Shown: piece by piece, positions 53,791-57,521 of the stretch
Layout: every line of letters starts with the position of its first letter
Numbering within the stretch: position 1 is the stretch's first letter
NCBI RefSeq assembly: GCF_002797685.1
Contig: NZ_PGFH01000002.1
Coordinates: forward strand, 248,001-312,000
Reading direction: 5' to 3'
Origin: Salinibacterium amurskyense
Lineage (GTDB): Bacteria > Actinomycetota > Actinomycetes > Actinomycetales > Microbacteriaceae
DNA: 64,000 nucleotides
The notes under the pieces: generated by a model
Databases searched by the model: none
What the model was told of the DNA's origin: nothing
The model's input: only the letters and a program-made list of their open reading frames with translations
Position numbers and translations under genes: made by a program

Positions 53791-53838
53791 CCACTACATC
53801 TAGGGTTGGCGAGAGGTGGCACCCACGATATATAGTGG
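53791..53838. promoter_or_regulatory. Two NrdR boxes and promoter of nrdA
   Basis: CCACTACATCTAGGGT (53791-53806) and CCACGATATATAGTGG (53823-53838) match the NrdR box pattern aCaCwAtATaTwGtgt. Their centres are 32 bases apart, three helix turns, as expected for NrdR pairs. A likely promoter, TTGGCG (53806-53811), 17 bases, TATATA (53829-53834), overlaps box 2, so repressor binding would block RNA polymerase. Confidence 0.82.
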
Positions 53839-53899: not shown

Positions 53900-56338
53900 G
53901 TGGCAATCACAGTCGTCAAGCGCAACGGTCAGCGAGAGCCGTACGATGCGAACAAGATCAACATCGCAATCGAAGAAGCCGCAGCCGGCCTCGACGAGAA
54001 CATCACGTGGGTCACTCAGATCGCTTCTGAGCTCGAACTGACGCTGTTTGACGGCATCACCACGCAGCAGCTCGACGAAGCTGTTATCCAGGTTGCTCTC
54101 CAGAACGTGAAAGATGACCCGGCCTTCGACACTGTCGCCGCCCGTCTTCTCCTCAAGACCATTTACAAGCGCGTTCTCGGTGACTACACCGACGCTGCTG
54201 ACCTCAAGCGCCTGCACAAAGAACACTTCGCCACCAACGTCACCCGCGGCGTAGAAGAGGGACTCCTCGACCCTCGCCTCACGAGCATGTTCGACTTGGA
54301 TGCTCTCGCCGAGCACCTCGAGCCCGCTCACGACGAGCTGCTCAAGTACATCGGTGTCGTCACCCTCAACAACCGCTACGGCATCAAGGGTCGCAACGGC
54401 GATGCCCTCGAGGTTCCGCAGTACTTCTGGATGCGCATCGCAATGGGCCTCTCGCTCAACGAAGCGAACCCCAACGAGGCAGCGCTCAAGTTCTACGAGA
54501 AGATGTCCAGCCTCGAATACCTGGCTGCCGGCTCCACTCTCGTGAACGCGGGAACGATCTACCCGCAGCTCGCAAACTGCTTCGTCATGGAAATGCAAGA
54601 CGACATGGAGCACATCGCCAAGACCACGCGCGATGTCATGTGGCTCACCAAGGGCACCGGCGGAATTGGCCTTTCGGTCACCAAGCTGCGCGCCCAGGGT
54701 TCACCCATCCGCTCCAACAACACCACGTCCACCGGTCCCATCCCGTTCATGCACACGATCGACTCGATCCTTCGTGCTGTGAGCCGTGGTGGCAAGAAGT
54801 TCGGTGCGCTGTGCTTCTACATGGAGAACTGGCACATGGACTTCCCGGAGTTCCTCGAACTCCGCAGCAACTCCGGTGACCCCTACCGCCGCACCCGCAC
54901 CGCCAACACGGCCGTGTGGATCAGCGATGAGTTCATGAAGCGTGTTCAGAACGACGAGCCGTGGTACCTCTTCGACCCGCTCGAAGTTGCCGACCTCAAC
55001 GAGCTCTACGGCAAGGCGTTTTCCGAGCGTTACAACGAATATGTCGCCATGGCCGAAGCCGGCGAAATGCACATGTTCAAGAAGATCGGTGCTCGCGAGC
55101 AGTTCAAGTCGATCCTCATCTCGCTGCAGACCACCAGCCACCCGTGGCTGACCTGGAAAGACACGATCAACAACCGTGCGCTCAACAACAACACGGGCAC
55201 GATCCACCTCTCCAACCTTTGCACCGAAATCACGCTGCCGCAGGATGAAGACAACGTCTCCGTCTGCAACCTCGCGTCGATCAACCTCTCGCGTCACCTT
55301 CTGCCCGAAGGCGGCGTTGACTTCGTGAAGATCGCGGAGAGCGCTCGACTGGCCGTTCGCCAGCTCGACAACCTCATCGACATCACGCGCTCCAGCGTGA
55401 AAGAAGCTGACTTCTCCAACGAGCAGAACCGCGCCGTCGGTCTGGGCGTCATGGGATTCACCGACATCATCGAGAAGCTCGGCTACAGCTACGAGAGCGA
55501 AGAGGCCTACGACCTCATCGACGAAATCATGGAGCACGTCTCGTACGCAGCGATCGACGCCAGCACCGAGCTAGCCAAAGAACGTGGCTCGTACACAAAC
55601 TTCGAAGGCAGTCGCTGGTCAGAGGGCCTCGTGCCGCTCGACTCCATCGCGCTCACCGAAGCCGACCGTGGCATGGAGATTAAGGTCAACCGCAAGACGC
55701 GTCTCGACTGGGATGCTATGCGCGAGAAGGTCAAGGGCGGAATGCGTAACGCAACGCTCATGGCGATCGCTCCCACCGCATCCATTGGTCTTGTCGCCGG
55801 CACCACGCCCGGTCTCGACCCGCAGTTCTCGCAGATCTTCAGCCGCTCGACCTCGAACGGTAAGTTCCTCGAAGTGAACCGCAACCTCGTTGCGACTCTG
55901 CAAGAAAAGGGCCTCTGGGAGCAGAACCGCGAAGCGATCCTGCGTAGCCAAGGTGACGTGCAGAACGTTGCAGGCATCCCCGACGACATCAAGGCCGTGT
56001 TCAAGACGAGCTTCCAGCTCTCGCCGTACGCGTTCCTTGAAGTTGCCGCTCGTGCTCAGAAGTGGATCGACCAGGCCATCAGCCGCAACATGTACCTCGA
56101 GACGCGTGACCTCGGCGACATGATGGACATCTACTTCGACGCATGGTCGCGCGGAGTAAAGACCACCTACTACCTGCACATGAAGCCTCGCCACCAGGCC
56201 GAGCAGTCCACGGTGAAGGTCAATAAGGCAGAAGAAATTTCGTCGACCAAGGCTGCAACAGCCTCGACATCCACATCAACAGCGGGCGCAGCTCCCGCAC
56301 GCCGAGGTTTCGGCGGATTCGCAAAGAAGGCAGAGTAA
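53900..56338 (+). CDS. nrdA: Class I ribonucleoside-diphosphate reductase, large subunit
   Basis: An 812-residue enzyme that reduces ribonucleoside diphosphates. Residues 1-95 form an ATP-cone (VVKRNGQREPYDANKINIAI). The catalytic core has Cys227 in LANCFV, Asn439-Cys441-Glu443 in SNLCTEI, Cys456 in VCNLASIN, and the radical-path pair Tyr757-Tyr758 in KTTYYLH. There is no cysteine after Cys456, whereas class I enzymes normally end in a CxxC or CxxxxC tail that re-reduces the active site. The C-terminus is instead a low-complexity Ala/Ser/Thr tail ending GGFAKKAE. A 26-codon frame with the tail begins two bases after the stop. NrdR and DnaA boxes lie upstream. Confidence 0.95.
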   Translation: MAITVVKRNGQREPYDANKINIAIEEAAAGLDENITWVTQIASELELTLFDGITTQQLDEAVIQVALQNVKDDPAFDTVAARLLLKTIYKRVLGDYTDAADLKRLHKEHFATNVTRGVEEGLLDPRLTSMFDLDALAEHLEPAHDELLKYIGVVTLNNRYGIKGRNGDALEVPQYFWMRIAMGLSLNEANPNEAALKFYEKMSSLEYLAAGSTLVNAGTIYPQLANCFVMEMQDDMEHIAKTTRDVMWLTKGTGGIGLSVTKLRAQGSPIRSNNTTSTGPIPFMHTIDSILRAVSRGGKKFGALCFYMENWHMDFPEFLELRSNSGDPYRRTRTANTAVWISDEFMKRVQNDEPWYLFDPLEVADLNELYGKAFSERYNEYVAMAEAGEMHMFKKIGAREQFKSILISLQTTSHPWLTWKDTINNRALNNNTGTIHLSNLCTEITLPQDEDNVSVCNLASINLSRHLLPEGGVDFVKIAESARLAVRQLDNLIDITRSSVKEADFSNEQNRAVGLGVMGFTDIIEKLGYSYESEEAYDLIDEIMEHVSYAAIDASTELAKERGSYTNFEGSRWSEGLVPLDSIALTEADRGMEIKVNRKTRLDWDAMREKVKGGMRNATLMAIAPTASIGLVAGTTPGLDPQFSQIFSRSTSNGKFLEVNRNLVATLQEKGLWEQNREAILRSQGDVQNVAGIPDDIKAVFKTSFQLSPYAFLEVAARAQKWIDQAISRNMYLETRDLGDMMDIYFDAWSRGVKTTYYLHMKPRHQAEQSTVKVNKAEEISSTKAATASTSTSTAGAAPARRGFGGFAKKAE

Positions 56339-56340
56339 TT

Positions 56341-56421
56341 ATGAACCGCGAAAACACCGTTGAGGACTACTTCGTACCGGTCGACCCGATGGACGACCTG
56401 CAGTGCGACAGCTGCCAGTAA
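56341..56421 (+). CDS. 26-residue micro-ORF with the RNR CxxC tail sequence
   Basis: This frame encodes MNRENTVEDYF and ends in DDLQCDSCQ. The Cys22-x-x-Cys25 end looks exactly like the redox-active C-terminus missing from NrdA. ATG 56341 lies two bases after the NrdA stop, and AGAAGG ten bases before it could serve as a ribosome-binding site. This fits termination-reinitiation. The frame is -1 to nrdA and stays open upstream across the nrdA end. A -1 shift at GCAAAG, or a sequencing error, would therefore also join the tail to NrdA. Whether it is a free peptide or a fused tail is undecided. Confidence 0.72.
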   Translation: MNRENTVEDYFVPVDPMDDLQCDSCQ

Positions 56422-56522: not shown

Positions 56523-57521
56523 ATGGGAATTCTAGGTACAGGCCTGCAAGACGGCCTCCTGCTGAAGCCAATTAAGTACCAATGGGCTATGGACCTGTAC
56601 GACCAGGCCGTGGCTAACACCTGGTTCCCTAACGAGATCCAGCTGGGCGAAGACATCGCCGACTTCAAGAAGATGACTGATGAAGAGCGTCACGCGGTGA
56701 CCTTCCTCATGAGCTACTTCAACCCGAATGAGCTGCTCGTCAACAAGGCACTCGCCTTCGGCGTATACCCCTACGTTTCTGCCGCAGAGTGCTCGCTGTA
56801 CCTCGCGAAGCAAATGTGGGAAGAAGCCAACCACTGCATGAGCTTCGAGTACGTTCTCGAAACCTTCCCCATCGACCGCGAAGCGGCCTACAACTCTCAC
56901 GTTGATGTGCCGTCCATGGCGCGCAAGGAAGAGTTCGAAATGAAGTACATCCGTCGCATGACGGAGCAAACCCTCGACATCAACACCATCGAGGGCAAGC
57001 AGGACTTCATCCGCAACCTCGTGGCCTACAACGTGGTGCTCGAAGGCATCTGGTTCTACTCGGGCTTCATGGTTGCCCTGTCGTTCCGCCAGCGCAACCT
57101 GCTGCGCAACTTCGGTTCGCTCATGGACTGGGTTGTTCGCGACGAGAGCCTGCACCTCAAGTTCGGTATCAACCTGATTCTCACGGTGCTCGAAGAGAAC
57201 CCCGAGATTCAGACCGAAGAGTTCGCTGACGAAATTCGCCAGATGATCTTGGATGCTGTGGAGATGGAAGAGGCGTACAACCACGACCTGCTCCCCGGCG
57301 GCATCCTCGGCCTCAACGCCAACTACATCAACCAGTACGTGAAGTACCTGGCTGACCGTCGCCTTGAAGAGCTCGGCTTCGAGCCGCACTACAAGGTCTC
57401 GAACCCGGCCAAGTGGATGGCAACAGCCAACGACACTCTCGAGCTCGTGAACTTCTTTGAGTCGACCAACACCTCGTACGAAGCCAACGCGTCGGCAACC
57501 ACCAAAGCAAAAGCGGAGTGA
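56523..57521 (+). CDS. nrdB: Ribonucleoside-diphosphate reductase small subunit, class Ic-like
   Basis: A 332-residue ferritin-like subunit that generates the radical for NrdA. Metal ligands are Glu70, Glu101, His104, Glu174, Glu208 and His211. The position of the radical tyrosine is Phe108 (EANHCMSF). The first ligand is Glu instead of Asp. All ligand spacings, and the C-terminal Tyr319, equal those of Chlamydia trachomatis R2 shifted by 19. This protein is the model for Mn(IV)/Fe(III) class Ic enzymes. The same metal cofactor is inferred. ATG 56523 follows a GAAAGAAGAAG purine-rich site. The stop overlaps the GNAT gene start. Confidence 0.95.
   Translation: MGILGTGLQDGLLLKPIKYQWAMDLYDQAVANTWFPNEIQLGEDIADFKKMTDEERHAVTFLMSYFNPNELLVNKALAFGVYPYVSAAECSLYLAKQMWEEANHCMSFEYVLETFPIDREAAYNSHVDVPSMARKEEFEMKYIRRMTEQTLDINTIEGKQDFIRNLVAYNVVLEGIWFYSGFMVALSFRQRNLLRNFGSLMDWVVRDESLHLKFGINLILTVLEENPEIQTEEFADEIRQMILDAVEMEEAYNHDLLPGGILGLNANYINQYVKYLADRRLEELGFEPHYKVSNPAKWMATANDTLELVNFFESTNTSYEANASATTKAKAE

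Follow-up and report, generated by a model that had tools for sequence, protein, structure and literature searches.

The window analysed here, a 64-kb stretch of contig NZ_PGFH01000002.1 of Salinibacterium amurskyense (positions 248,001 to 312,000), carries the nrdA and nrdB genes of a class I ribonucleotide reductase (RNR) and, between them, a micro-open reading frame (micro-ORF) whose product resembles the C-terminal redox tail of such enzymes. The features of this locus, in window coordinates, are as follows.

53792..53836, + strand: NrdR-type box pair upstream of nrdA (pattern match).
53900..56338, + strand: nrdA, class I RNR catalytic subunit of 812 aa, with its TAA stop codon at 56336-56338 (Pfam, NCBIfam).
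56341..56421, + strand: micro-ORF, putative detached redox tail, MNRENTVEDYFVPVDPMDDLQCDSCQ (ORF reading, family conservation and profile match).
56523..57521, + strand: nrdB, class I RNR radical-generating subunit, with a Phe aligned with the radical-Tyr site (Pfam Ribonuc_red_sm, NCBIfam).

The micro-ORF comprises 26 codons, two of them for cysteine, and starts two bases past the nrdA stop codon, in the -1 frame relative to nrdA. NrdA itself has cysteines at positions 227, 305, 441 and 456 only; with none beyond C456, it lacks a C-terminal dithiol. The preliminary description of this DNA, made from its sequence alone, had reported the ORF, its frame, its coordinates and the cysteine count of NrdA, all of which proved correct on re-reading the sequence. 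The observation of a tail-less NrdA with a separate CxxC micro-ORF is confirmed. We consider it highly probable that the redox tail of a class I RNR has here been split off into a dispersed peptide, probably co-regulated with the enzyme by NrdR, that acts in trans.

The class I signature of NrdA is otherwise present. Pfam recognizes its ATP-cone, all-alpha and barrel domains, and C227, C441 and C456 are in place; we take these to match C225, C439 and C462 of the Escherichia coli enzyme, and C227 and C456 to form the active-site disulfide, by homology. A ferritin-like radical subunit (Ribonuc_red_sm) is encoded alongside. The trait missing from NrdA is the C-terminal redox cysteine pair, and that pair is encoded by the separate ORF. 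The best NCBIfam model for NrdA is that of the alpha-subunit (NrdA), and NrdJ_Z scores under its cut-off. Neither Pfam nor NCBIfam recognizes the micro-ORF (threshold E 0.001); the peptide profile, which itself includes this peptide, scores it at E 8.5e-15 in its own genome. In that genome (2.78 Mb, 99.99% complete), this nrdA is the sole match of an NrdA query at E 0.001, and the closest named relatives among those compared are Salinibacterium strains, with NrdA proteins 96-97% identical. The Ala/Pro-rich linker of NrdA ends in an ARRGFGGF motif (56297-56335); short linear motifs of this [RK][RK]GFG(F)GG-like kind, often in two copies, occur at the linker end of many split and fused enzymes.

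The class I enzymes of E. coli and humans carry the C-terminal dithiol fused to the catalytic subunit. In such RNRs, a cysteine pair on a flexible tail re-reduces the active-site disulfide and is in turn reduced by thioredoxin or glutaredoxin (PMC5704485, PMC4390871). The peptide encoded by the micro-ORF has a cysteine pair and a terminal Gln, preceded by a conserved segment also found in fused tails.

We determined how widely this arrangement occurs in the family Microbacteriaceae. The NrdA query matched all 27 genomes of the genus, with a weak E of 8.2e-45 for G006, and, in the family, 291 of 299 genomes, many of these 291 matches being only ~30% alike; by best E-value, 130 family genomes were scored as having this NrdA. 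A separate set of 130 nrdA junctions was parsed, drawn from the genus (26 of its 27 genomes) and from 104 other genomes of the family; it left out 20 further family genomes with this NrdA and four loci lacking a usable NrdA end. The micro-ORF is present at 125 of the 130 parsed junctions, 124 by motif and one (in genome G035) by profile alone, and it ends in YxVPxDPMDxLQC[DE]SCQ or a near variant. Among 123 junction copies, the proportions of synonymous (pS) and non-synonymous (pN) differences over the final 17 codons are 0.54 and 0.12, respectively, and for the same core in the 25 genus copies they are 0.52 and 0.057 (both averaged over all pairs, with no tree). Thus, the conservation of the 17-codon core is far beyond chance, and change in it is mostly synonymous. 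The motif used for core extraction fixes D6, P7, M8, C13, C16 and Q17, so that invariance at these positions is partly by construction, and a single junction copy, L010 (N for D9), fails it. In contrast to the core, the N-termini of the peptides are variable, with ~3 to 35 residues ahead of it. In G035 (L124; genome 86% complete), the nrdA frame continues past the micro-ORF without a stop, which may reflect overlapping genes or an assembly error.

Three explanations had initially been offered for the layout, namely the coupled synthesis of a diffusible redox peptide, a programmed -1 frameshift near GCAAAG and an indel. A frameshift would yield a fused NrdA-tail protein, and the micro-ORF is indeed in the -1 frame at 106 of 124 junctions. 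However, the other 18 junctions use other frames (0, i.e. in frame past the stop, at 11 and +1 at 7), and overlaps of the ATGA, TGATG and TAATG kinds yield the -1 frame anyway. Because the micro-ORF occurs in all three frames and some genomes have unlinked copies only (see below), frameshifting is ruled out as a general mechanism, and we find it very improbable as an explanation. Even less credible is an assembly error or a recent indel in this strain: the fused form of the outgroup enzymes would be in keeping with it, but the same layout is found in >100 genomes with mostly synonymous change, and this family-wide conservation rules it out. The evidence supports the first explanation, a separately made peptide that would be redox-active and may be diffusible. 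The nrdA stop codon and the first start codon of the micro-ORF, picked automatically, overlap (offset -1 or +2) at 84 of 124 junctions, which suggests translational coupling.

The peptide and the tail-less NrdA occur together. A peptide match at E 0.01 or better was found in 136 of 299 family genomes, comprising all 130 genomes with this NrdA and only six of the 169 without it; the remaining 163 have neither. Five of the six extra genomes (G138, G196, G273, G313 and G315) are draft assemblies in 120-320 contigs with a completeness of 77-94%, in which the NrdA match is absent or fragmentary, and the sixth, G166, has a weak partial peptide match (E 0.002) and a best NrdA match of E 6.3e-45. G006, which belongs to the same genus, is 99% complete and has only weak NrdA matches (22-30%), yielded no peptide copy in this search.

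The origin of the peptide is indicated by the NrdA proteins of other families of the order (L135-L153), whose ORF runs through an Ala/Pro-rich linker to ...CPVDPMERLQCESCQ or a similar CxxCQ end. Each of the 19 fused NrdAs examined, which represent eight families, has Cys residues at -5 and -2 and a third at -12 to -15. Among the split NrdAs with a recognized C456 motif, 115 of 116 are devoid of any later cysteine (11 others without a recognizable motif were excluded from this count), and the exception, L279, has a single Cys after the motif, 92 residues from the end. The P.DP...L.C..CQ motif around the cysteines is kept in fused and free forms alike, and in the free peptides a different residue, usually Val, takes the place of the third cysteine seen in fused tails. 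A FastTree phylogeny was computed for 114 NrdA cores, with five distant fused enzymes as the root; in it, the 96 split proteins form one clade (support 0.974) that includes none of the 18 fused ones; 47 of the 80 named loci in the tree and the cysteine counts duplicate the DNA of another included locus.

A second tail profile containing fused sequences (A2) was searched against the order and the class. In the order, 28 genomes outside the family matched; for 27 of them the tail is part of an open frame 458-1108 aa long, nrdA being present at every one of these 27 loci, and the last is a weak partial match. In the class, 24 genomes outside the family matched, 21 of them with the tail in frames of 851-1153 aa. 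Of the other three, L414 seems to be cut short by a contig end, the best match of G687 shares the frame of a truncated NrdA, and one is a weak partial match. Since the split clade is monophyletic and nearly all tails outside the family lie in long open frames, the fused state would most simply be ancestral, with a fission that happened once. The preliminary description had named as adverse the finding that the tail is fused in homologues and that this strain alone is split; the former holds true in other families, but the latter does not, as the whole clade is split.

With a profile built from 20 peptides (A1), a second copy was detected in the S. amurskyense genome (G000:C2:141214-141294, MDNENDTVGGYAIPVDPMDLLQCDSCQ), ~161 kb before the nrdA start. 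Neither this gene with its box pair nor the phage and plasmid copies described below figured in the preliminary description. This unlinked gene lies directly upstream of hadA-hadB-murB (names read from the protein sequences, not from a family search), a location kept in many genera. We selected 34 extra-copy regions from the profile match lists, 25 of which are at or near the hadAB-murB locus. Eight others have neither this synteny nor the boxes described below, and one of these, L187, has no peptide under the motif; the last region, L196, has boxes but no hadAB-murB synteny within its 5 kb. The genomes of the five parsed junctions that lack the micro-ORF (G163, G079, G201, G148 and G041) each have an unlinked copy at hadAB-murB. 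Three more loci without a junction micro-ORF (L283, L286 and L280) come from genomes that also have the unlinked copy; as L280 is the contig of G163 again, this makes eight such junctions in seven genomes, and L260 ends at a contig end ahead of the junction. In the reduced genome G041, the only peptide copy is found between hadB and murB. Where a genome has an unlinked copy only, the tail could therefore act only in trans.

The unlinked gene and nrdA share a putative regulatory signal. The box pair before nrdA reads CACTACATCTAGGG...GATATATAGTGG (CACTACATCT...ATATAGT), with 16 bp between the boxes, and the pair before the unlinked peptide gene has a 17-bp spacer, both counted by hand. The pair upstream of nrdA resembles the NrdR box. 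The spacer of NrdR boxes is usually 15-16 bp, and spacers of 14-17 bp were bound by all NrdRs tested (PMC12051234); predicted box pairs with such spacing (~14-17 bp) are thus found upstream of both nrdA and the unlinked gene, as in members of the NrdR regulon. Within the window the box pattern has one match, compared with none in 100 simulated windows of equal dinucleotide make-up. The whole genome has exactly two matches, one before nrdA and one before the unlinked peptide gene; a looser pattern gave the same result, and a reversed-pattern control gave no match in the whole genome. The weight of these counts lies in the fact that nothing else in 2.78 Mb matches and that the reversed control is empty; they tie the unlinked gene to RNR independently of the peptide sequence. 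The genome also has a match to TIGR00244, which we take to be the NrdR family.

The patterns were written from the two sites in view, so that the following counts are descriptive. One box pair is found 80-215 nt upstream of nrdA in all 48 loci scanned, a set that excludes the junction stretches, which hold no DNA upstream of nrdA. Of the 34 extra-copy regions, 24 have a box pair, namely L196 and 23 of the 25 at hadAB-murB. Such pairs are also present in one of 83 viral loci and in none of 15 loci from other families (L135-L149).

Copies of the peptide gene also occur in phages, contigs classed as viral and plasmids. Standalone, unannotated copies are found at the holin gene end in Pontimonas phage phiPsal1 and Clavibacter phage CMP1. 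Among contigs classed as viral in IMG/VR, 223 of 231 pattern stretches encode a relative of the peptide. In the 83 viral loci examined, i.e. the best 80 of these 223 relatives and three phages, the peptide motif appears under the pattern in 82, and none has hadA, hadB or murB within the few kb examined. Only one of them, L383 (3986-8069), has nrdA and nrdB, with the peptide upstream of nrdA. This nrdA is interrupted by an in-frame insertion of ~307 aa, a candidate intein-like element. Nineteen plasmid records match the peptide at E 5e-5 to 0.09 (15 from Clavibacter, three from Leifsonia and one from Gryllotalpicola), and in the three that were inspected all three peptides end in CxxCQ. On a plasmid of Leifsonia sp. 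ZF2019 (L404, 4983-5084), a 33-codon coding sequence for the peptide is labelled 'ribonucleotide-diphosphate reductase subunit beta'; one or more such ORFs thus already carry an RNR label in databases. A variant (FACPNDPADLVSCESCQ; L319, 3971-4084) is found in 'Pseudanabaena' phage Pan2, for which the recorded source is a cyanobacterium; this variant lies in a frame other than that of the annotated coding sequence and has the extra Cys of fused tails.

The phage copies could be modulators, and together with the differing lengths and sequences of the N-termini they could suit a peptide that regulates or inhibits RNR or another thiol enzyme, with thioredoxin or NrdH re-reducing NrdA directly. 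We consider such a role unlikely. The C-terminus of outgroup NrdA proteins is the same sequence, CxxCQ is present in 124 of 124 junction copies (although the motif search itself requires it), and the co-occurrence with the tail-less NrdA is near-strict.

Our preferred interpretation is as follows. Those Microbacteriaceae that use this class I RNR would descend from an ancestor in which the C-terminal tail of NrdA was cut off and became a free-standing gene of ~25 codons. The peptide would dock on NrdA through YxVPxDPMDxL, and its CxxC would reduce the active-site disulfide after each turnover before being itself re-reduced by thioredoxin or a glutaredoxin-like protein. It would thus perform in trans what the flexible tail performs in cis. 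NrdR would co-regulate peptide and enzyme, and phages and plasmids may carry the peptide to support host deoxyribonucleoside triphosphate synthesis. A broader proposal, to which we give slightly better than even chances, is that a free dithiol peptide of ~25 residues is the obligatory electron carrier from the thioredoxin system to class I RNR throughout the family; its gene would be under NrdR control together with the enzyme and would be exchanged between chromosomes, plasmids and phages, a minimal auxiliary metabolic gene.

Alternatively, the peptide may be a permanently bound third subunit (alpha-beta-tail), the fission having altered only its encoding. This is a sub-case of the detached tail acting in trans, so that the odds of the two overlap, and we regard it as a serious possibility, somewhat short of even. 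The retention of P.DP...L.C..CQ in both fused and free forms is as expected of a docking site, and in the split class II RNR discussed below NrdJb binds NrdJa with an apparent dissociation constant of ~260 nM (PMC4520616). Unlinked genes, multiple copies per genome and phage and plasmid copies better suit a free component with its own stoichiometry than a 1:1 subunit, but are compatible with both.

Several points weigh against a detached tail acting in trans. Translation of the peptide is deduced from its conservation, and the phage matches are weak (E 0.02-0.08), the evidence there being the full motif at the end of an ORF. The box pair is missing from 10 of the 34 extra-copy regions, including the only copy of G041 (L183) and L204, both at hadAB-murB. 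The predicted structure of a fused NrdA (L142; 25 aligned sequences) has a mean predicted local distance difference test score of 56.9, with the linker below 50, too low to place the tail. A class II RNR without its cysteine-rich domain was not reactivated by the separately expressed domain (PMC5704485). Finally, the peptide could have a further partner besides NrdA.

As for the neighbouring nrdB gene, the EEANHCMSF segment of its product aligns with EEAVHTHTF of 1syy, a chlamydial R2, and has Phe in place of the radical Tyr of standard R2 proteins; this may point to an Mn/Fe class Ic enzyme. The hypothesis that the peptide substitutes for the C-terminus of NrdB was dropped, because split genomes and the closer fused outgroups have similar NrdB ends (NFFE..NTSYE).

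The transfer of electrons by the swinging tail of class I RNRs to a buried active site is hard to study because the tail is flexible and covalently attached, and here it is naturally detached. Intact enzyme could be supplied with a synthetic 26-mer, whether titrated, labelled or mutated, which would make the affinity, the stoichiometry and the rate of the tail step directly measurable. The data also point to a class of very short phage- and plasmid-borne genes, several of them unannotated in the records inspected, and suggest that the NrdR regulon has one more probable member.

Nothing among the open-access PubMed Central matches listed described a class I RNR tail peptide encoded apart from NrdA, subscription journals being mostly outside this search. 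NrdH, thioredoxin and glutaredoxin are small CxxC proteins that bring electrons to RNR, but these folded redoxins are far longer than 26 aa; in contrast, the peptide resembles the tail of NrdA itself and has no redoxin-domain match (Pfam, NCBIfam, E 0.001). The fused class I enzymes of other families (L135-L147) have a related NrdA (~67-73% identical), an NrdB, the same catalytic Cys residues and the same CxxCQ end, but there the tail is covalently attached. The nrdA of Aeromonas phage Aeh1 is reportedly interrupted by a mobile element in one phage, unlike a detached peptide. This genes-in-pieces nrdA, named in PMC3653736, likewise has a class I catalytic subunit in two genes, and the same source lists RNR genes of phages that are divided by introns, inteins or homing endonucleases.

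As in the NrdJa/NrdJb system of Pseudomonas aeruginosa and its relatives, an RNR is split and a separate polypeptide would supply dithiol exchange. That class II enzyme was called the only split RNR in a non-viral organism as of 2015; its two parts function as separate chains, both of which the cells require to grow once their class I RNR is blocked, and NrdJb, of 229 aa, mediates dithiol exchange (PMC4520616). NrdJb has been equated with a cysteine-rich domain that other class II RNRs contain (PMC5704485). The NrdJ system is an adenosylcobalamin-dependent class II enzyme, whereas here NrdA matches the alpha-subunit model and is accompanied by nrdB. NrdJb is a cysteine-rich zinc-finger domain of ~150-230 aa encoded in the same operon, whereas the peptide has 26 aa and two cysteines, and unlinked, plasmid or phage copies are not described for NrdJb in the excerpts of PMC4520616 and PMC5704485. 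The peptide would work like NrdJb yet is not of that family, and the enzyme would be a new form of split RNR. To our knowledge, it has the smallest and most dispersed trans-acting part of any RNR.

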